A stretch of DNA of 64,000 bases from Fibrobacter sp. UWB5 (GCF_002210295.1 NZ_MWQH01000002.1:248001-312000); one strand, 5' to 3'. Positions 1 to 22,951 are shown, counted from the stretch's first letter. A program made the numbers and translations. The notes: generated from the sequence alone by a model not told the origin.

Positions 1-579
1 GACAAAGACGAGGCCAAGAAGGCGGCTCTCCTCGAAATGCAGAGGATTGCGTTGGAGCACAAGGTGCGCGTGGTCGATGGCGATGCTTTCCAGTATTATG
101 AGTCCTGGAAGTATCCGGTTTTAAGGGAACTGATTCCGATGATGCCGGGGGCGACTCCCCGCGACATAGCCGATGCGTGCAAAGAACATGTGTCTGCCGA
201 AGAAGTGCGCGATGTACTGAATTTCTTGGTGAAGGCCGGGTTCCTGAAAAAGGACGGTGAAAAGGTTTATTCGCAGACGGAACAGACTGTAATCGGTTCG
301 CAAGAGGCTTTGCCTATCGCCATTCGGGCCATGCACAAAGAGATGGCGAATATGGCCGCCCGCGCCGTGGATTGCTATGCGCCGAACGAACGTTATTTTA
401 CGGGCGTCACGCTCAGCGTGAATCAAGAGGCTAGAGAAAGAATTGCAAAAGAACTTGATGCCTGCTGCAGAAAGGTGCTTTCGATTGCGAACGAATACAA
501 CGACCAAGATCAGGTCTGCCGAATCAACTTTCAGTTTTTCCCGGTAACGGACAATATTAAAGAGGTGCGCCATGCTTAA
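1..579 (+). CDS. TIGR02147/DUF4423-type protein, 5' end outside the window
   Basis: The frame is open to base 1 without a stop, so the gene starts upstream; the internal Met at 37 is not a convincing start. The visible 192 residues have a winged-helix-like stretch (about residues 40-80) and a carboxy half with 'RYFTGVTLSV...A...I..EL..C..KVLSIAN', typical as I remember it of TIGR02147, a family first described as many Fibrobacter succinogenes paralogues. The function is unproven; a regulatory role is often assumed because of the helix-turn-helix-like middle. The stop overlaps the start of the next lipoprotein gene by 8 bp, so the two are probably translated together. Confidence 0.75.
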   Translation, partial: DKDEAKKAALLEMQRIALEHKVRVVDGDAFQYYESWKYPVLRELIPMMPGATPRDIADACKEHVSAEEVRDVLNFLVKAGFLKKDGEKVYSQTEQTVIGSQEALPIAIRAMHKEMANMAARAVDCYAPNERYFTGVTLSVNQEARERIAKELDACCRKVLSIANEYNDQDQVCRINFQFFPVTDNIKEVRHA

Positions 580-1363
580 GAAGTTTGCACTTGCAGTCAG
601 TTCCATATCCTCCATTTTCATGGTGGCCTGCTCCAGCGATAACGTGGCCGGCGGGACGATTGACCCCAATTCCATTGCCGAGGTTAGCAGCTCTTCCGAA
701 AGCGTTCCGGATGTGAATCCAATCGTAACAAGTTCGTCCGCAGGTGAAAAGAATGTGGGCGGGTCCAGTTCGTCCGAAGCCATTGAGGATTCCGTTGCCA
801 AATCCAGTTCGTCTCAAAAATCTGTCTTGTCAAGTTCTAGTTCCTCACAGGTGGGGCCGAAGAACATGAGCAGCAGTTCGATTGAAGATAAAGACCTTGT
901 GCCGGATCCGATACCTGTGTCTTCTTCGTCGGAAGAAGTTGATGGCCGTAGCTCTTCGTCGGAATACCATAATCTTCGTGTCCATACAGAGGATTTCAGT
1001 TTGCAGTGCAAGGATTATTCACTCTATAATAAAAACGATATTCCCGTTGTCGACCCCGAAATCGAACCTCCTTCGGCTCGCTTCTACATGGATGGAAATT
1101 CAGAAGTGATTCAGTTTGAAAATGTCCAATTCGATGTTCCTTGCGACGAAGAACAACGGACATCATTCTTGAATGATGTCAACGAATCTGGCGCAATAGT
1201 AGGTCTTGATGGGAGTACGCTGTATGCAGCCTTTAGTCGGAGCAAGGGCTTGGATTATGGCTGTTTCTGCGTGGCAGATGCCGGATTCAAAATGGACCAG
1301 TTCTACCCTGGCATAGATTCTGCAGTCTTCGATAATCAAAGGGCGATTCCGTTAGGAAATTAA
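572..1363 (+). CDS. Ser-rich lipoprotein, function unknown
   Basis: 263 residues. A positively charged start (MLKK), a hydrophobic stretch and the lipobox 'MVAC' with Cys at about residue 20 indicate export and lipidation. Residues 35-130 are a linker of Ser runs broken by acidic residues, typical of Fibrobacter envelope proteins. The last 120 residues form a globular part with 'NVQFDVPC' and 'YGCFCVAD', a Cys pattern also seen twice in the next lipoprotein. The gene overlaps the preceding TIGR02147 gene by 8 bp and is followed by the second lipoprotein 15 bp later, so the three look like one operon. No enzyme motif is visible. Confidence 0.85.
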   Translation: MLKKFALAVSSISSIFMVACSSDNVAGGTIDPNSIAEVSSSSESVPDVNPIVTSSSAGEKNVGGSSSSEAIEDSVAKSSSSQKSVLSSSSSSQVGPKNMSSSSIEDKDLVPDPIPVSSSSEEVDGRSSSSEYHNLRVHTEDFSLQCKDYSLYNKNDIPVVDPEIEPPSARFYMDGNSEVIQFENVQFDVPCDEEQRTSFLNDVNESGAIVGLDGSTLYAAFSRSKGLDYGCFCVADAGFKMDQFYPGIDSAVFDNQRAIPLGN

Positions 1364-1378
1364 TTAAAGGAGGAAATC

Positions 1379-2488
1379 ATGAAAAAGAATTCGATTTTTG
1401 CAACAGTCGTCTCTGTTGCTGCTGCGATGACACTTTCGTTTGGCTTACTTGCTTGCGGCGATGATTCGTCTTCGGGCACGGCGCCTGAAGCGCCCGTGAC
1501 AGGGAACAATAGTTCCGCGGTGGAGGAGTCTTCCTCTAGTGAACTTCCACCCGATACAACCTGTTGCAAGGTGACGAGTTCTTCTTCTAGCGAAGAACTG
1601 AGCTCGTCTTCGGTGTCGTCTTCTTCGCAAGAAGAAACCGTACAGCAGATTAACGATATCTTTGGAACGTGCCTCGATAAAAAGGTGGACCCTATGATGG
1701 ATGCGACCTTGCCTCCTGTAGCCTATTTGGGTTATGAAGACGGAGACGATTCGGCGACGGTCGTTGTCGAGAATGTTTCGATGAATTGTAGGTCTATCAG
1801 CGGAACGGTAAGTATCATTAGGCAACCGATTGTCGGAAATATTTACCTTTCGGCATCCGGTGATACCCTTTATATGCAACAAGTGGCGCTTGATACCGTC
1901 AATGCCGAACCGGATTGCATTTGTGATTCCCGACTGATTTTTAAGGTGAAGGCTGATCCTGCATTCATCAATGCCACGATATTAGTTGCTGTTAAAGGCG
2001 GTGATTATGGCTACAGAATGGAAATTGTTAAGGCGTTCCCGCCTGATGAACAGGAACCGCGGGATTCTATTCCTGTCGCGCAGGATAGCATTCCCGAATC
2101 GACCTCGACAGATTTGGAGTTGAATGGCTATGCACGCGGCAAGTGCATGAATAATGACCTTGCCGTGAAGCCTGTTACAAAAAGTGCAGCCTCTGAGCTC
2201 CCCGAAGCAAGGCAGATTACTTACATGAACGGCGAAACTGTCTTGACTTTGGAAAACGTGACGGACTATTGCGGAATTGACGCGAAGGTTTCTCAGAAGA
2301 TGGTCGGCGATACCTTGATGCTTGACTATTACGATGCAACCAGTGTAACCAAGTGCATTTGCAACTTTGATAAAATCGAATTCCTGATTGAACCGGAAAA
2401 TGCAACTGCCCGATACGTCAAGTTCAAGGATGTTCTGTACTGGGTCAATGTGATTATGTACGAAGTTGACCCTAATTGGAAAGGGTAA
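1379..2488 (+). CDS. Ser-rich lipoprotein with two Cys-containing repeats
   Basis: 369 residues. A strong Shine-Dalgarno site (AAGGAGG, 1367-1373) precedes the ATG. The signal peptide ends in the lipobox 'LLAC' (Cys about 26), followed by Ser/Glu-rich linkers. Two homologous units follow, roughly residues 95-210 and 255-360. Each has an early Cys (GTCLDKK / GKCMNND), a 'VxLxNV...C' segment (ENVSMNC / ENVTDYC), and a 'GDTLY/ML...CIC..xI.F.I' segment. The upstream lipoprotein carries one related unit, so this is likely a local paralogous domain. Four conserved Cys per unit suggest disulfides. Function is unknown; an envelope location is inferred from the lipobox. Confidence 0.85.
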   Translation: MKKNSIFATVVSVAAAMTLSFGLLACGDDSSSGTAPEAPVTGNNSSAVEESSSSELPPDTTCCKVTSSSSSEELSSSSVSSSSQEETVQQINDIFGTCLDKKVDPMMDATLPPVAYLGYEDGDDSATVVVENVSMNCRSISGTVSIIRQPIVGNIYLSASGDTLYMQQVALDTVNAEPDCICDSRLIFKVKADPAFINATILVAVKGGDYGYRMEIVKAFPPDEQEPRDSIPVAQDSIPESTSTDLELNGYARGKCMNNDLAVKPVTKSAASELPEARQITYMNGETVLTLENVTDYCGIDAKVSQKMVGDTLMLDYYDATSVTKCICNFDKIEFLIEPENATARYVKFKDVLYWVNVIMYEVDPNWKG

Positions 2489-6064: not shown

Positions 6065-7498
6065 AAAAGTAAAGCCTGCAAAAATATTATCACTTAAGAA
6101 TGGTAACGCACCCAACACAATCACGGCAACCGTCAAGAGCCCAATCACACCGCGCTGGCGCTTGGTCATGCGGAGCGGATTCAGGTGTTCGTCGGTCTCG
6201 TCAATCCAGGCGCTCTTGATCAGCTGCAAGTAATAATACAGCGCGAGCACGTTGTTGAGGACTGCGAATGCCACGATGCCGTAATGTCCGGTAGATGCCC
6301 CGCTGAAGAACAGGTGGAACTTACCGAAGAAACCTGCAAGCGGCGGAATGCCAGCCAAGCTGAACATGGCAACGGCCAGTGCGATTGCAAGCATCGGCTT
6401 CTGCTTGGAAAGCCCGCGCAGAGAATTGAACGTTTCTTCGCGGTGGTGCCCGATGATGCCGAAGATAAAGAAGGCGAGGTAGTTCGAAACCGCATACACG
6501 AACAGGTAGTAAATGATAGCGGTCTTTGCGGTGGCTGCCGGACCGAGCAGGGCGACCATGATGTAGCCGGCCTGGGCAATCGAGCTGTAAGCCATGAAGC
6601 GACGAAGCCTGCTCTGCTTGAGGGCGCCGAGGTTACCGACAAAGAGCGTTGTTCCGGCAAGCAATGCGATGAACGGGGCAATCTGTTCCTGAATCGGAGC
6701 GAGCGGGCCGTAAACGAGCATCACGAGGAACGCAATCGCGGTTGCCTTCGAGGTCACCGAGAGAATGGCGGTTACCGGAGTCGGGGCGCCTTCGTAGACA
6801 TCGGGTGCCCAAGTGTAGAACGGGAACAAAGTCAGCTTGAAGCCGATGCCTGCGAACAGGAACAGCACCGCAATCCACAGCAGGGGAGAGGTGCCTGCGG
6901 CGATGGCTTGCTGGATCGCTTCGAAATGGATGGAACCGGCAAAGCCGTAAAGGTAGCTGAACCCGAACAGTTCGAAGGCGGTCGCGACAGAGCCCATCAA
7001 AATGTACTTGGTCGCGGCTTCGGAGCCGTATTGGTCGCGCTTGTTCCAGGCAGCAAGAGCGTACATCGGGATGGTTGCGATTTCGAGGCCCAAGAAGAAC
7101 GTGAGCATATCGCAGGCCGAAACCACCGTAAATCCGCCGAAGGTGGCGAATGCGACTGTACCGATGAATTCTGCAATCTGGTGCATGGCGGGCTTACCGT
7201 CGCCACTGTGGTCAAAGTAGTCTTTAGCAAGCCAAATGCCGAGAATGGCAGACACCATCAAGACTTCGCGCATTAAAACGCCAAAGGTATCGATGTGCCA
7301 GTTGGTGATGAAGAATCTGCCGGCTCCGCCTGTAAGCGGAATCAGGTTCAGCAGGATGAAAATCAGAATGAATCCGATGTTTCCGATTCTCCAAGGAACC
7401 TTGGAACGGTCAGAACAGAACAGCCTGCTTCCGATCACGATAAACGGGAAGAGCAGAAGCAGCAAATCGGGAATGACAAAATTGGGAATGCTGAACAT
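6062..7498 (-). CDS. nuoN: NADH-quinone oxidoreductase subunit N
   Basis: 478 residues and about 14 hydrophobic segments; an antiporter-like proton-pumping subunit of complex I in the inner membrane. The middle holds the Mrp/NuoLMN signature (about residues 130-330, 'FFLGLEIATIPMYAL', 'LFLFAGIGFKLTLFPFYTWAPDVYEG') with the conserved Lys and the TM5-type Glu. It is the last gene of the nuo operon; its ATG overlaps the nuoM stop by one base (TAATG). Its stop codon is formed by the end of an intergenic repeat. Confidence 0.97.
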   Translation of the reverse strand: MFSIPNFVIPDLLLLLFPFIVIGSRLFCSDRSKVPWRIGNIGFILIFILLNLIPLTGGAGRFFITNWHIDTFGVLMREVLMVSAILGIWLAKDYFDHSGDGKPAMHQIAEFIGTVAFATFGGFTVVSACDMLTFFLGLEIATIPMYALAAWNKRDQYGSEAATKYILMGSVATAFELFGFSYLYGFAGSIHFEAIQQAIAAGTSPLLWIAVLFLFAGIGFKLTLFPFYTWAPDVYEGAPTPVTAILSVTSKATAIAFLVMLVYGPLAPIQEQIAPFIALLAGTTLFVGNLGALKQSRLRRFMAYSSIAQAGYIMVALLGPAATAKTAIIYYLFVYAVSNYLAFFIFGIIGHHREETFNSLRGLSKQKPMLAIALAVAMFSLAGIPPLAGFFGKFHLFFSGASTGHYGIVAFAVLNNVLALYYYLQLIKSAWIDETDEHLNPLRMTKRQRGVIGLLTVAVIVLGALPFLSDNIFAGFTF

Positions 7499-9003
7499 TA
7501 TAAACCTATCTTGGTAAAGATGGGGGCGATGCTTTGGTCAAGCATGTCTGCAATCCATCCGGGGAAAACGCCAATCAAAAGTAAACATGCCACAAGAACA
7601 ACCACTACGAGTTTTTCGCGGAAACAAGCGTCGGTAAGCGTTTCGTACTTGGCGGGCATGTTGCCGTGCAACATGCGGTTTGCCGTCTGCAGGATGTAAA
7701 CGGCGGTCGTCGTAATTGAAAGGATTGCAAGCACGGTCACCACGCGCGTCAGCGTAGAGTCTTGCTGGAAGGCTCCGATAAAGATGTTGCTTTCGGCAAT
7801 GAATCCGCTGAAGCCCGGCAGGCCAAGGCCCGCAAAGCCAGCAATCACAAAGCCCACGCCGAGGAACGGGAGCTTGCGCATAATGCCGCCCATTTCGGTA
7901 ATGTCGCGGGTATGCGTGCGTTCGTAAATCATACCAATCGTTGCGAAGAAGAGTCCCGTCAAGAATCCGTGAGAAATCATCTGGAGAGATGCACCGCGAA
8001 GACCCACAGGAGTCATGGCAGCGAGACCCAAGAAGATGAGGCCCAAGTGGCTAATGGAACTGTAGGCCGTAATGTACTTGAGATCTTTGTGGCGGAGCGC
8101 AATGAAGGGGCCAAGTACCACGTTAAAGATTAAGAGTGCCACTACGTACGGGAGCCAAATCTTGGCGGCTTCCGGCATCAGGAACATGGCAACGCGCAAG
8201 CAGCCGTAGGCACCCATCTTCATCATCACGCCGGCGGCAAGCATCGAAACCGCAGTCGGTGCGGCCGAGTGACCGTCCGGGCTCCAGAAATGGAACGGGA
8301 ACAAGGAACTGGAAACTGCGAAACCCATGAACATGAGCGGGAAAGCCCACATCTGGTAATCCATCGGGAGCGTGACCTTGGAAAGTTCCACAAGGCTGAA
8401 GCTGTTGATTCCGCTTTCGAAATAAAGTCCGAACAGCGTTGCCAGAATCATGGAAGATCCGAAGGCAAGCGTCAACGTCAGTTTTTTACCGCCGTAGTCC
8501 TTGCGGCCGGAACCGTAGCCTGCAATCATCAGGTACATGCAGAGCGCTTCCATTTCGTAGAACACGAAGAACAGCACCAAGTCCATGCTCATGAACACGC
8601 CGTAGACGCTTGTAGCGAGCAGCTGGATGAGTGCGAAGAATACCTTTTGGTTGCCCTTGATATGCCAGCTCACCAGAATGCCTGCCCAGACAATGACAGC
8701 GGTGAGGAACAGCAAGAACATGTTCAGACCGTCGGCGCCGACGGCATAATGGGCGTTAAAGGCGTGCAACCACGGAATGTCCATGTAGTAATGGAGCAAA
8801 AGCGGCGCAGATTCCTTGGCGGCAGAGTCGATGCCAAGCGTGTAGAGCCTGTAGGTAAGGTAGCCGACAAGCAGCAACACGAAAGTTCCCGAGACGGCGT
8901 GAATCGTCTTGAGTAGGGATTCCTTTTGCGAAGAAATCGGTGCGCAGACTAAGACCGTGAAAAGCGGGATAATCCAGATGAGGTTAAAAAGCAAAGTATC
9001 CAT
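7498..9003 (-). CDS. nuoM: NADH-quinone oxidoreductase subunit M
   Basis: About 501 residues, polytopic. The motifs 'FFVFYEMEALCMYLMI' (TM5 Glu) and 'PFHFWSPDGHSAAPTAVSM' are characteristic of the NuoM proton channel. I chose the ATG at 9003, which has AGG about 9 nt upstream; an in-frame TTG two codons earlier would add two residues. It sits between nuoL (12 bp gap) and nuoN (1-bp overlap). It works with NuoL and NuoN to couple quinone reduction to proton export. Confidence 0.97.
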   Translation of the reverse strand: MDTLLFNLIWIIPLFTVLVCAPISSQKESLLKTIHAVSGTFVLLLVGYLTYRLYTLGIDSAAKESAPLLLHYYMDIPWLHAFNAHYAVGADGLNMFLLFLTAVIVWAGILVSWHIKGNQKVFFALIQLLATSVYGVFMSMDLVLFFVFYEMEALCMYLMIAGYGSGRKDYGGKKLTLTLAFGSSMILATLFGLYFESGINSFSLVELSKVTLPMDYQMWAFPLMFMGFAVSSSLFPFHFWSPDGHSAAPTAVSMLAAGVMMKMGAYGCLRVAMFLMPEAAKIWLPYVVALLIFNVVLGPFIALRHKDLKYITAYSSISHLGLIFLGLAAMTPVGLRGASLQMISHGFLTGLFFATIGMIYERTHTRDITEMGGIMRKLPFLGVGFVIAGFAGLGLPGFSGFIAESNIFIGAFQQDSTLTRVVTVLAILSITTTAVYILQTANRMLHGNMPAKYETLTDACFREKLVVVVLVACLLLIGVFPGWIADMLDQSIAPIFTKIGL

Positions 9004-19198: not shown

Positions 19199-19238
19199 AA
19201 AGAGCCGCACCGAAAAAGGTGCGGCTCTTGCTTTTTTT
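19199..19238. terminator. bidirectional hairpin terminator
   Basis: Perfect 12-bp arms AAGAGCCGCACC and GGTGCGGCTCTT with a 6-nt loop (GAAAAA on the plus strand). On the plus strand TGCTTTTTTT follows; on the minus strand the arm runs into TTT and serves the radical SAM gene that ends at 19259. Confidence 0.85.
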
Positions 19239-19258: not shown

Positions 19259-20335
19259 TTATGCGCCGGCGTCTTCCAAGCGTTTTACATGACAGTAGGC
19301 CAATTCCTTCGTTTTTTCGTCACGTAAGTGCAGGCTGGAGCCTTCGCAGTAGCGCCAGTATTTACAAGTCTTGCAGTCGCCAATCTTGGCCCAGCTGCGG
19401 TCACGCATCACCTGGTAACGCTTCTGCCAGACTTCCCACAGGTCGTCCTTGTAAATGTTGCCCTGGATATAGTCGCCGCGCAGGCTCGGACAGGCCGAAA
19501 TGCTGCCGTCGCAGAGCACAGAAGACACGTTCACGCCGGCACGGCAGAAGAACGGGTAGTTGCGGGCATCTTTTTCGTAGCTGCCGAGGAATCCTTCGCA
19601 GCCATAATTCACGTTAATCACGTTCAGTTTCTTGACTTCGCGAATAAAGTCGAATACCTGGCGGAATTCCTGGTTCGTAAGCTGGAACAGCGGATTGTCC
19701 TTGGCGCGGCCCTTCGGGAACACGGTCGCGATTCTCCAGCGTTTTACGCCGATTTTCAGGAGCATGTCGAGAATCTTCGGGAGTTCTTTCAGATTCTGGC
19801 GGTTCACGCAGGTCATCACATCGAAGGTGAGACCTTCGGTGTGAGCGGCCATGTCAATGGCCCGCAACGCTCGCTCAAAGCTATGCGGGTCGCCGCGGAA
19901 ATGGTTGTGGCTCTCTTGCAGGCCGTCGAGGCTGATCGTGAGCGAGCGTAGACCTGCGTTCAGCAGGCGCGTGTAACGCTCGGGCGTCATCGCAAGCGCG
20001 TTAGAAACCATGCCCCAGGGGTAGCCGCGCTTCTTGATTTCCATACCGCATTCTTCGAGGTCCGGACGCATCAGGGGTTCGCCGCCGGTAATCACCACGA
20101 TAAAATGCTTCGGGTCAATGTGCGGGGCGAGTTTATCCAGCACGCCCATGAAGTCTTCGCGAGGCATGTCGGGGATGGCGTCCTTCACGCAGTCGCTACC
20201 GCAGTGCAGGCAGTGCAAGTTGCAGCGGAGCGTGCATTCCCAGAAAAAGTAGGTAAGAGGGTGCGCCTTGATTTCGTTGTGGCGGTAAAGGCGATAAGCT
20301 TCGAGAGCGAGTTTTTTCTTAAGAGAGAGTTGCAT
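19259..20335 (-). CDS. radical SAM/SPASM enzyme of a lipoprotein-modification system
   Basis: 358 residues. The radical SAM cluster motif CX3CX2C is 'CNLHCLHC' (about residues 38-45) inside 'WECTLRCNLHCLHCGSDC'; 'TGGEPLMRPDL' is the SAM-binding GGE motif. The carboxy third carries a SPASM-type Cys set ('FFCRAGVNVSSVLCDG', 'ACPSLRGD', 'DCKTCKYWRYC', 'YCHVKRL') for auxiliary 4Fe-4S clusters. SPASM enzymes usually modify peptides or proteins. The gene is the last of an operon with three lipoproteins rich in Tyr-Gly motifs and starts 5 bp after the third. From memory it fits the rSAM/lipoprotein family TIGR04133. The substrate assignment is inferred from context. Confidence 0.88.
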   Translation of the reverse strand: MQLSLKKKLALEAYRLYRHNEIKAHPLTYFFWECTLRCNLHCLHCGSDCVKDAIPDMPREDFMGVLDKLAPHIDPKHFIVVITGGEPLMRPDLEECGMEIKKRGYPWGMVSNALAMTPERYTRLLNAGLRSLTISLDGLQESHNHFRGDPHSFERALRAIDMAAHTEGLTFDVMTCVNRQNLKELPKILDMLLKIGVKRWRIATVFPKGRAKDNPLFQLTNQEFRQVFDFIREVKKLNVINVNYGCEGFLGSYEKDARNYPFFCRAGVNVSSVLCDGSISACPSLRGDYIQGNIYKDDLWEVWQKRYQVMRDRSWAKIGDCKTCKYWRYCEGSSLHLRDEKTKELAYCHVKRLEDAGA

Positions 20336-20340
20336 AAATC

Positions 20341-21633
20341 CTAATGACGTTCTTTGGGGTAATATTTCTTGTTGAATTCGTTTTTGGTGTAGGTGACGCT
20401 TTCACCCTGTTTGTCAATGCATTTGATATCTGTTTCGCCATCGTTTCTAGTGCAAGTAACACCATCTTTGCATCGATACATGTTGGTGCATGTTGAGGTT
20501 ACTCCGTATACAGGGCACATGGCTTCAAGATCACAAACCGTCAGATTGGTGTTGGGGTTTGATGTTGCCAGGCATTGGTTGATTTGATCTTCGATATCCT
20601 TTAGCTTGTCTTCATAAATCTTTTGACATTCTTTGTCCAGGGCGGGTTTGTTCTTTTCCCATTCCTCTTTCATCGTCAGGTAATCGAGATATTCCTGCGT
20701 CGGACGCGTGATTCCGTCGCTGCAAACTTCATTTGTGTGAATTTGGATCGGAGCGCCATATAGTGCGACAAACGAGTCAAGTTCTTGCTGCAAATCGGCG
20801 ATGCACTGTGGAACCGAATTCAATGTATTTACAGTGCTGTCGATTTTGCGACTGCTTTCGTACTTAGCTTTTTCTTCAGCGTCCATTTTAGCGATATCGG
20901 CTGAATAGGAGGGCGGGTAATACGCTATGGCCGAATCTCCGGGCACGCAAGTGACATCGCCTGAGCTGGAGCTTGCCGCTACGGAGGAACTGGAACTGTT
21001 GCGGAACTTGGCGGCGTATTCGTCCCAAGTGTATAGCATTTGGCCCTCTTGCAGCAGTTTTCCGTCTTCTTTATTTACAAGGGGGTTCTCGACGGGGTCG
21101 TGTACTATACGGGTCTTGCCGTCGGAACATTCATATTTCAGGTTGATTTCAGGCCTTACACAAGATGGTGTCCCATAGAGAGGGACTCCGTAGAGGGGGG
21201 CAAACTCATCGTCGTTAGCAGCCCCTTTTTTTGAATAGTTGTCATAGAGAAGGCAATTGCCCGGGAATACCCTTTCGTCGGTGTATTTGCAGGTGATGTT
21301 TGTGTCGCTAGCGAGCTTGTAACGGTCCGTTGCCTCCTCGCTGGAACTGGATTCTTCGGATAATTCACTGCTGGAGCTGGATTCTCCGAATACGGGCTCA
21401 TCTCCGTAAACCGGAGGGTTGAAGAATTCGCTGCTGGACGAATCTCCATTCTCGGTTCCGTTTGTCTCGCTAGAACTAGATTCTTCGTTGTTCGAATCGC
21501 TGCTTTCGGGTTCGTCGTAGCAACCGTCCGGAGGGCATCCGTAAAGCGGAGTGTCCTCGGTTGTTTCGCTACAGCTGGCCCAGAAGAATGCGGTCAGCGT
21601 GAGAGCAATTTTTTTCCAGTGATTGTAAAACAT
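20341..21633 (-). CDS. lipoprotein with repeated YG motifs (candidate radical SAM substrate)
   Basis: 430 residues. The signal peptide MFYNHWKKIALTL...FFWASC (Cys 21) is nearly the same as in the next two lipoproteins. A Ser/Glu-rich linker follows. Tyr-Gly motifs recur: PLYGCPP, PVYGDEP, PLYGVPLYGTP, ALYGAP and PVYGVT, mostly followed by a hydrophobic residue and Pro. Many Cys lie in the carboxy 300 residues, where units of the type 'C.DG.TR' recur ('CSDGKTRIVHDP', 'CSDGITRPTQEY', 'CKDGVTCTRNDG'). The start follows the previous lipoprotein by 3 bp with GGGGGA as ribosome site. Function is unknown; the YG motifs beside the radical SAM gene suggest post-translational modification. Confidence 0.85.
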   Translation of the reverse strand: MFYNHWKKIALTLTAFFWASCSETTEDTPLYGCPPDGCYDEPESSDSNNEESSSSETNGTENGDSSSSEFFNPPVYGDEPVFGESSSSSELSEESSSSEEATDRYKLASDTNITCKYTDERVFPGNCLLYDNYSKKGAANDDEFAPLYGVPLYGTPSCVRPEINLKYECSDGKTRIVHDPVENPLVNKEDGKLLQEGQMLYTWDEYAAKFRNSSSSSVAASSSSGDVTCVPGDSAIAYYPPSYSADIAKMDAEEKAKYESSRKIDSTVNTLNSVPQCIADLQQELDSFVALYGAPIQIHTNEVCSDGITRPTQEYLDYLTMKEEWEKNKPALDKECQKIYEDKLKDIEDQINQCLATSNPNTNLTVCDLEAMCPVYGVTSTCTNMYRCKDGVTCTRNDGETDIKCIDKQGESVTYTKNEFNKKYYPKERH

Positions 21634-21636
21634 ACT

Positions 21637-22254
21637 TTATTCCCCCTTAATAGATGTTGTATCCACCTTAATAAAGATTTCACCATCTAGCTTTGCGGGG
21701 CAATCGATAATGGGGTGGCAGCCTGCAAGTGAATCCTGCTCAATCGGCTTGAAAGGGTTGCGTTCAATGCAGATATCTTGGTCGCTGGTGCAGTTGGGTG
21801 CTTTTTCGCTACCAGCCTTCGGGGCGAAAACCTGGACTCCTTCGGGGAGCTCAACGCCCTCGAAACCGGCATCAGACGGATCTCGAAGGTACTTGTTGCC
21901 GTCGATACAGTCAATAATCTTGAACACCCTGCCTTCGACATTTTGCGCCGAATCGTTGAAGCAGAGTGTTTCGTCTGTGTATATCAAGACTTTGTCGTCA
22001 GGACCGTATGGAGGATCGTACGGAACGCCATAGTCGAGAGCCATCTCAATGAACTCGCTGCTGGAACTTTCTTCTGCCGAACTGGAAGAGGATGTAATAA
22101 CACTGGGATCATGCTCTATGGGTTCTATTATCCCATAAAGACTGGGGTTTGCTTGGATTGAGGAAATGTCTTCACTGGAGCCATCGCTTCCACAGCTGGC
22201 CCAGAAAAAACTGGCCAGAGCAAGAGCGATCTTTTTCCAGTGCTTGTAAAACAT
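21637..22254 (-). CDS. lipoprotein with YG motifs (candidate radical SAM substrate)
   Basis: 205 residues. The signal peptide MFYKHWKKIALAL...FFWASC ends in a lipobox (Cys 21). YG motifs are SLYGIIEP and DYGVPYDPPYGPDD. The mature part has paired Cys segments ('LCFNDSAQNVEG', 'IDCIDGNKY', 'NCTSDQDICIERNP', 'GCHPIIDCP') that look disulfide-prone. Middle gene of the three; 31 bp after the first lipoprotein and 3 bp before the third. Probably anchored in the outer or inner membrane; no enzymatic motif. Confidence 0.83.
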   Translation of the reverse strand: MFYKHWKKIALALASFFWASCGSDGSSEDISSIQANPSLYGIIEPIEHDPSVITSSSSSAEESSSSEFIEMALDYGVPYDPPYGPDDKVLIYTDETLCFNDSAQNVEGRVFKIIDCIDGNKYLRDPSDAGFEGVELPEGVQVFAPKAGSEKAPNCTSDQDICIERNPFKPIEQDSLAGCHPIIDCPAKLDGEIFIKVDTTSIKGE

Positions 22255-22285
22255 GGCTGATTCCCTGACGGTCGACTAACGACTT

Positions 22286-22951
22286 CTATTCCTTTTCGTC
22301 GTTGCAAGTGCCGTTAAATACGCAGGGAGGTCCATAAAGGACTGGCTGCATATCCTTAAACGAGGTGTCCTGTGCCGGATCGTCGACAATGGTCATCTTT
22401 TCGTAGCGAGCATGGAATTCGGCTTCGCTGTAAACCTTGCCGTCGCATTCGTAGGTGTTTTCGGAAATCTGCACCACGCCGTAATCAGGGCAGATGTCGT
22501 TGCTGCAGGGGAGTCCACCCCAACGCTCTTCGGTTTTTTGCGTACAGGTGGCGCCGTCAGCGCATGTCATCGTGGATTCGCCCTTTACCTGGGTGCAAAT
22601 GTATTTGTCCATGACAACGCCGTATAAAGGTTGTGCTTCGACTAGTGTGTCGCCGCTGCTGCTGGAATTCAAAATGGGATCGTCCGGAACTCCATAAGCG
22701 GGCATAATCTGCTCGAAGCTGCTGGAACTTGCTTCAGTCGCTTCGCTAGAACTTGAGACCTGAGCCTGCTTTTCGCTAGAACTGGATGTCGTTTCGTTTC
22801 CGGTTGCTACGCTGGAACTGGATTCGGGTGTCGCTACGCTGCTGGAACTGGGGTCTTCAGCGCCATTTGCAGAGGTGGTATCGCTGTCGCAGCTGGCCCA
22901 GAAAAATCCGGCCAGGGCGAGTGCAATTTTTTTCCAATGTTTGTAGAACAT
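22286..22951 (-). CDS. lipoprotein with YG motifs (candidate radical SAM substrate), first gene of the operon
   Basis: 221 residues. The signal peptide MFYKHWKKIALAL...FFWASC (Cys 21) matches the next two genes almost exactly. A long Ser-rich linker (about 25-80) follows. YG motifs are PAYGVPDDP, PLYGVVMD, PDYGVVQI and VLYGPPCV, the last close to the carboxy end. Cys-rich middle ('CTQVKGESTMTCADGATC', 'LPCSNDICP'). A clear ribosome site (AAGGGAG) precedes the ATG and a promoter with 17-bp spacing lies 34 bp upstream, so transcription of the whole four-gene operon probably starts here. Confidence 0.85.
   Translation of the reverse strand: MFYKHWKKIALALAGFFWASCDSDTTSANGAEDPSSSSVATPESSSSVATGNETTSSSSEKQAQVSSSSEATEASSSSFEQIMPAYGVPDDPILNSSSSGDTLVEAQPLYGVVMDKYICTQVKGESTMTCADGATCTQKTEERWGGLPCSNDICPDYGVVQISENTYECDGKVYSEAEFHARYEKMTIVDDPAQDTSFKDMQPVLYGPPCVFNGTCNDEKE

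Follow-up and report, generated by a model that had tools for sequence, protein, structure and literature searches.

What does a radical SAM enzyme do beside three lipoproteins with repeated Tyr-Gly (YG) motifs? The question is raised by a locus of Fibrobacter sp. UWB5, located in a 64,000-nucleotide stretch of DNA that was analysed as a whole (hereafter the window). An earlier note on this DNA proposed that the enzyme modifies these motifs before export. The conserved pairing of enzyme and YG proteins gives this proposal strong comparative support, while the modification itself we infer from sequence. The note gave no chemistry; kinship and motif point to a splicease-type chemistry. In our preferred reading, to which we assign a probability of about 0.6, this TIGR04133 radical SAM/SPASM protein acts in the manner of a splicease.

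Gene organization and enzyme family

The four genes lie on the minus strand of the window and are separated, in order of transcription, by 31, 3, and 5 bp. The features of the locus are as follows.

22286 to 22951, minus strand: lipoprotein 1, 221 aa, with four YG sites (PAYGVP, PLYGVV, PDYGVV, VLYGPP)
22889 to 22951, minus strand: signal peptide and lipobox of lipoprotein 1, MFYKHWKKIALALAGFFWASC, common to all three lipoproteins
22691 to 22696, minus strand: YG of PAYGVP in lipoprotein 1
22619 to 22624, minus strand: YG of PLYGVV in lipoprotein 1
21637 to 22254, minus strand: lipoprotein 2, 205 aa, with three YG sites (SLYGII, LDYGVP, PPYGPD)
22192 to 22254, minus strand: signal peptide and lipobox of lipoprotein 2, MFYKHWKKIALALASFFWASC, common to all three lipoproteins
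22027 to 22032, minus strand: YG of LDYGVP in lipoprotein 2
20341 to 21633, minus strand: lipoprotein 3, 430 aa, with six YG sites (PLYGCP, PVYGDE, PLYGVP, PLYGTP, ALYGAP, PVYGVT)
21571 to 21633, minus strand: signal peptide and lipobox of lipoprotein 3, MFYNHWKKIALTLTAFFWASC, the proposed recognition tag
21172 to 21192, minus strand: twin site PLYGVPLYGTP in lipoprotein 3, most similar to PIRPLYGLPI, a splice tag published for PlpXY
20755 to 20760, minus strand: YG of ALYGAP in lipoprotein 3
19259 to 20335, minus strand: radical SAM/SPASM enzyme of the TIGR04133 family, 358 aa (NCBIfam and Pfam matches, alignment, AlphaFold2 model)
19200 to 19229, scored on the plus strand: strong terminator-like hairpin downstream of the enzyme gene

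The gene order, strand, and gaps are as the earlier note described them, and all the motifs it quoted are present: the 430-aa protein has PLYGVP and ALYGAP, the 221-aa protein has AYGVP and LYGPP, and the 205-aa protein has DYGVP. Since the gaps are short, co-transcription of the four genes is likely. The single promoter also claimed there was dropped, because a sigma-70 scan yielded matches at chance level only. A T-run on the minus side of the hairpin suggests that it could serve both strands. Of the nearest flanking genes, named from a reading of their sequences, one is RelA/SpoT-like and the other, which runs in the opposite direction, is anthranilate synthase-like; both are presumably unrelated.

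Profile searches bore out the proposed assignment of the enzyme to TIGR04133, with a score of 620.5 bits (cut-off 425) and residues 5-354 covering the full-length model (positions 1-350). The enzyme also exceeds the cut-offs of Pfam PF04055 (Radical_SAM) and PF13186 (SPASM). The CX3CX2C motif is located at residues 38-45, and SPASM cysteines at residues 264, 282, 321, 324, 330, and 348. The sixth SPASM cysteine is replaced by serine, followed two residues later by the invariant His336. In the family alignment, this cysteine is Ser, Gly, or Ala in all 197 of 197 TIGR04133 proteins, and the His two residues later is invariant. In canonical SPASM proteins the sixth cysteine binds auxiliary cluster I. 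With this cysteine gone, the auxiliary cluster of TIGR04133 would therefore differ, and the invariant His becomes a candidate for the vacant position, possibly as an unusual auxiliary-cluster ligand. The AlphaFold2 model of the enzyme (pLDDT 92) has an ordinary peptide-modifying SPASM fold with an extra N-terminal helix, and the nearest solved folds in a PDB search are SuiB, PqqE, SkfB, and anSME. The predicted model and the PDB search confirm a peptide-modifying SPASM fold and are silent on the chemistry.

Kinship to spliceases and the candidate reaction

A tree was calculated with five fast-evolving rows removed and with AhbD, AhbC/NirJ-type, and TIGR04053 enzymes for comparison. TIGR04133 grouped with a clade composed of TIGR04103 (Nostoc), TIGR03913, and two TIGR04103-like branches, with support of 100/100. 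When the fast rows were kept, PqqE fell between the two clades and the joining branch had support of 80/78; a sister relation between TIGR04133 and the clade with the splicease-type TIGR04103 enzymes (nif11-class radical SAM maturase 3) is therefore probable, though not proven. Both clades invariantly have G46 and S47 (behind CX3CX2C), T175, and W200, residues that are seldom found in the other enzymes.

PlpX is probably itself a member of TIGR04103, judged by its InterPro entry in PMC11002830. The locus resembles the splicease system PlpXY in the sister-clade position in the tree without long branches and in its XYG sites, 13 in the window, which have the same flanking residues. It differs in the enzyme, which scores 135.7 bits against TIGR04103 (cut-off 725) and is thus not a member, has 29% identity, and has one SPASM cysteine replaced. 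It also differs in its substrates, which are exported lipoproteins. Pfam searches found no Nif11 or NHLP leader in the window lipoproteins, which have a signal peptide and a lipobox instead, and no Nif11 leader was seen beside the TIGR04133 enzymes examined. Nor was a PlpY-like small gene seen in the window operon or beside these enzymes; PlpY-like proteins are short and match no family. PlpXY has been reported to be able to work without a leader.

The precursors next to the related enzymes were also read. The Nostoc TIGR04103 enzyme (853 bits) adjoins a Nif11 precursor ending in SIALYGLPPELF, and most readable branches of the TIGR04103-containing clade adjoin XYG precursors; for Tropicibacter and G039 the reading gave no clear precursor. 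An Agathobacter peptide beside an enzyme of this clade carries VMYGTG. TIGR03913, the GDL-motif/DUF1843 peptide maturase, lies in the same super-clade, and its DUF1843 peptides have PYG near the N-terminus in two of the three precursors read and YA in one. Unlike the window lipoproteins, its substrates are short peptides without a signal peptide. In other Fibrobacter species, a TIGR04103-like enzyme lies beside a protein of 275-400 aa with many KYGYP repeats (L188, 1075-2532 and 2612-3439, minus strand; also L189, L190, L194, and L195). It is a candidate for a spliceotide-type precursor with multiple sites within the genus.

Judged by kinship, the reaction is somewhat more probably tyramine excision than anything else. 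Tyramine excision corresponds to a loss of 135.0757 Da at each XYG site (PMC10533398). It is rather unlikely, but deserves consideration, that the enzyme acts on XYG with another chemistry, namely a cross-link, hydroxylation, epimerisation, or cleavage at Tyr or the preceding residue. SPASM enzymes catalyse many reactions, the nearest solved folds are those of SuiB, PqqE, SkfB, and anSME, the lost auxiliary-cluster cysteine and the nearby invariant His set TIGR04133 apart from TIGR04103, and the YA precursor of TIGR03913 departs from the motif. Such a chemistry is disfavoured by the match between the residues flanking YG and the published splice tags, and by the tree without long branches, in which the nearest relatives of known chemistry are spliceases.

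XYG sites and their association with the enzyme

The YG motifs are far more frequent than composition predicts. The three window lipoproteins contain 13 YG and 7 YGxP, compared with 2.24 and 0.14 in shuffles of their mature parts, and none of 20,000 shuffles reached either count. As controls, about 460 kb of the same genome were examined: YGxP was absent from all 38 other predicted lipoproteins, and poly-Ser proteins contained 8 YG against 7.5 expected from composition. The enrichment is therefore specific to the operon proteins and not a property of Fibrobacter lipoproteins or Ser-linkers in general. On a larger scale, 169 unique tagged proteins beside enzymes contain 495 YG (91 expected, 5.4-fold), whereas 880 neighbouring proteins of the same loci contain 890 (842 expected, 1.06-fold).

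The residues around YG are also biased. Pro or Ala occupies position -2 at 377 of 491 sites versus 177 of 926 in the background; positions -1, +1, and +2 favour L/K/E/D/A, V/I, and P/V, respectively. The pattern A-x-Y-G-V-V occurs 27 times and never in the background, and the exact class P[LIVM]YG[VILA]P is modestly represented (11/491 versus 5/926). The site signal is stronger position by position than as an exact six-letter class. Two frequent Fibrobacter contexts, PLYGVP and AKYGVV, resemble two published PlpXY splice tags, PLYGLP and A[M]YGVV. The XYG motif is well supported, and very probably correct, as the predicted target of the enzyme.

We then surveyed the neighbourhoods of TIGR04133 genes. 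Among the 168 Fibrobacterota genomes sampled, 89 have a TIGR04133 protein over the cut-off. Homologues regularly lacking a nearby YG lipoprotein did not occur: of 111 distinct Fibrobacterota enzymes whose loci extend 500 bp or more upstream, 105 are directly preceded by the gene for an exported YG protein, and a YG lipoprotein adjoins the majority of Bacteroidota enzymes. At least one of the six Fibrobacterota exceptions (L117) has a YG protein, whose upstream part is next to a masked stretch. Of 80 Bacteroidota loci, 60 had a YG lipoprotein-like partner next to the enzyme by an initial pattern search; reading the others revealed several more small YG lipoproteins, and about 9 of the 80 enzymes have no adjacent YG partner in reach. 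One to six lipoproteins per enzyme are common in Fibrobacter, and several species have two enzymes per cluster. Three substrates for one enzyme, taken earlier to make this locus stand out, are unexceptional because such numbers are usual in the genus and further tagged substrates lie elsewhere in the genome.

In other families and classes of Fibrobacterota beyond Fibrobacter, the partner is an exported YG protein and not necessarily a lipoprotein. It is a non-lipoprotein in three loci outside Fibrobacteraceae (L139, L143, and L148), with a T9SS type A sorting tail that is over the cut-off in L139 and weaker in L148. In four further loci (L150, L152, L153, and L157, at about 6900-8900), the gene of a TIGR04133-related enzyme that stays below the cut-off (about 275 bits) is directly followed by one for a zinc-ribbon-like, probably cytosolic protein with [I/L]YGPPI, or VYAPPI in one species. 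This pairing suggests an XYG modification system without export.

The YG motifs could instead be merely structural repeats, with the enzyme modifying the signal peptide, the lipid-carrying cysteine, or an unlinked protein. The signal peptide is indeed the most conserved part of the substrates, and the number of YG varies between orthologues: sites are gained and lost among orthologous lipoproteins, with three of six kept in lipoprotein 3. This explanation is nevertheless improbable, because XYG is the sole common feature found across the multi-site Fibrobacter lipoproteins, the single-site Bacteroidota lipoproteins, and the T9SS-tailed and cytosolic zinc-ribbon partners, each of them encoded beside an enzyme of this clade, and because the other lipoproteins of the genome lack YGxP.

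Signal peptide, proposed role, and the TIGR04133/TIGR04134 pair

The three window lipoproteins have most of their first 21 residues in common (MFYKHWKKIALALxxFFWASC), and their bodies are largely unalike. When a profile of this signal peptide was searched against the genome itself, it retrieved the three operon genes and, at lower yet significant scores, three more (L314, L315, and L316). Each of these encodes a lipoprotein with a related signal peptide and no adjoining TIGR04133 gene: L314 at 532-1569 (minus strand) with TLYGVR and PLYGVP, L315 at 1480-2343 (plus strand) with PLYGVV, and L316 at 697-1573 (minus strand) with ALYGVP. A single TIGR04133 gene in this genome exceeds the cut-off, so its enzyme probably serves at least six substrates.

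The tag was then followed in 20 other genomes. It is present in all 10 with the enzyme and missing from 7 of the 10 without an enzyme match over the cut-off, including the near-complete Fibrobacter genomes G087 and G090; the three tag-bearing genomes without an enzyme match are 71-84% complete. All 27 tagged proteins with a readable frame contain YG, some of them encoded far from the enzyme. No RiPP recognition domain was seen. The tag data suggest that a signal peptide can act as a maturase recognition tag, and we infer that here it may double as the recognition element of the enzyme. The notion of an ordinary operon, in which an unrelated radical SAM gene sits by rapidly diverging lipoproteins, has in its favour that the link is known from sequence and that the literature found names no family function, yet it is already contradicted by the association in three phyla and by the joint absence of tag and enzyme from near-complete Fibrobacter genomes, and can practically be discarded.

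If the enzyme works like a splicease, it would recognise the lipoprotein precursors by their signal peptide and splice their XYG sites in the cytoplasm, leaving ketoamide groups; the modified precursors would then be exported and lipidated. Proteins exposed on the cell would then bear several electrophilic ketones, preceded by a range of residues X (Leu, Lys, Glu, Asp, Ala). Protease inhibition has been reported for spliceotides with a ketoamide, and X would be expected at P1; a lipoprotein set with these five residues before the ketone could therefore, speculatively, shield the surface from a variety of proteases. That surface ketones act as protease inhibitors is a guess and is doubtful. Equally tentative is the wider picture of a splicease branch in Fibrobacter and gut Bacteroidota that makes multi-ketoamide surface lipoproteins, which would serve as multi-headed inhibitors of proteases anchored to the cell or as covalent binders; the signal peptide would be the tag, and one enzyme would serve scattered substrates.

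Spliceases are said to be widespread, a statement attributed to Scott et al. 2022. TIGR04133 is a common family of gut and rumen bacteria and, as far as the literature found shows, uncharacterised. If it splices XYG, the reach of radical backbone splicing would grow from small peptides to include surface lipoproteins. Membrane proteomes already recorded should then show a simple mass shift, and probes that react with ketones could be used to label these lipoproteins on living cells.

The pairing of TIGR04133 with TIGR04134 is an established NCBIfam annotation. We found no paper on the pair or on the NCBI lipoprotein name, and Scott et al. 2022 may already cover the family. The window enzyme belongs to TIGR04133 by the curated cut-off. 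The lipoprotein half of the pairing, which the earlier note had mentioned, does not apply: the three window lipoproteins have no TIGR04134 match (cut-off 39.8 bits) at E values up to 1, none was found in their genome, no NCBIfam family scored above chance level for them, and no Pfam model matched. They do have a TIGR04134-like trait, a lipobox and YGxP in the mature part beside an adjoining TIGR04133 gene. TIGR04134 matches across Fibrobacterota were mostly weak and partial, in proteins of about 500 aa, and were not used as evidence. Unlike TIGR04134 proteins, the Fibrobacter partners are in tandem, contain poly-Ser linkers and as many as eight YG sites, and have a signal peptide in common with further lipoproteins elsewhere in the genome. 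Three things appear to be new: this Fibrobacter variant, whose putative substrates are tandem, multi-site, signal-tagged, and scattered across the genome; the probable connection between TIGR04133 and XYG splicing, drawn from phylogeny and from the context of the sites; and the apparently altered SPASM ligand set of the family.

TIGR04134 lipoproteins of Bacteroidota and Treponema carry [E/M/C]YGxP close behind the lipid cysteine, and the Bacteroidota site is mostly [E/M]-Y-G-x-P. On a Treponema plasmid, a YG lipoprotein with the CYGMP version lies beside the enzyme. In Treponema saccharophilum (L160, 3622-4011), the YG site directly follows the lipobox cysteine (SCYGMP), so that the residue before Tyr would be the lipid-bearing cysteine.
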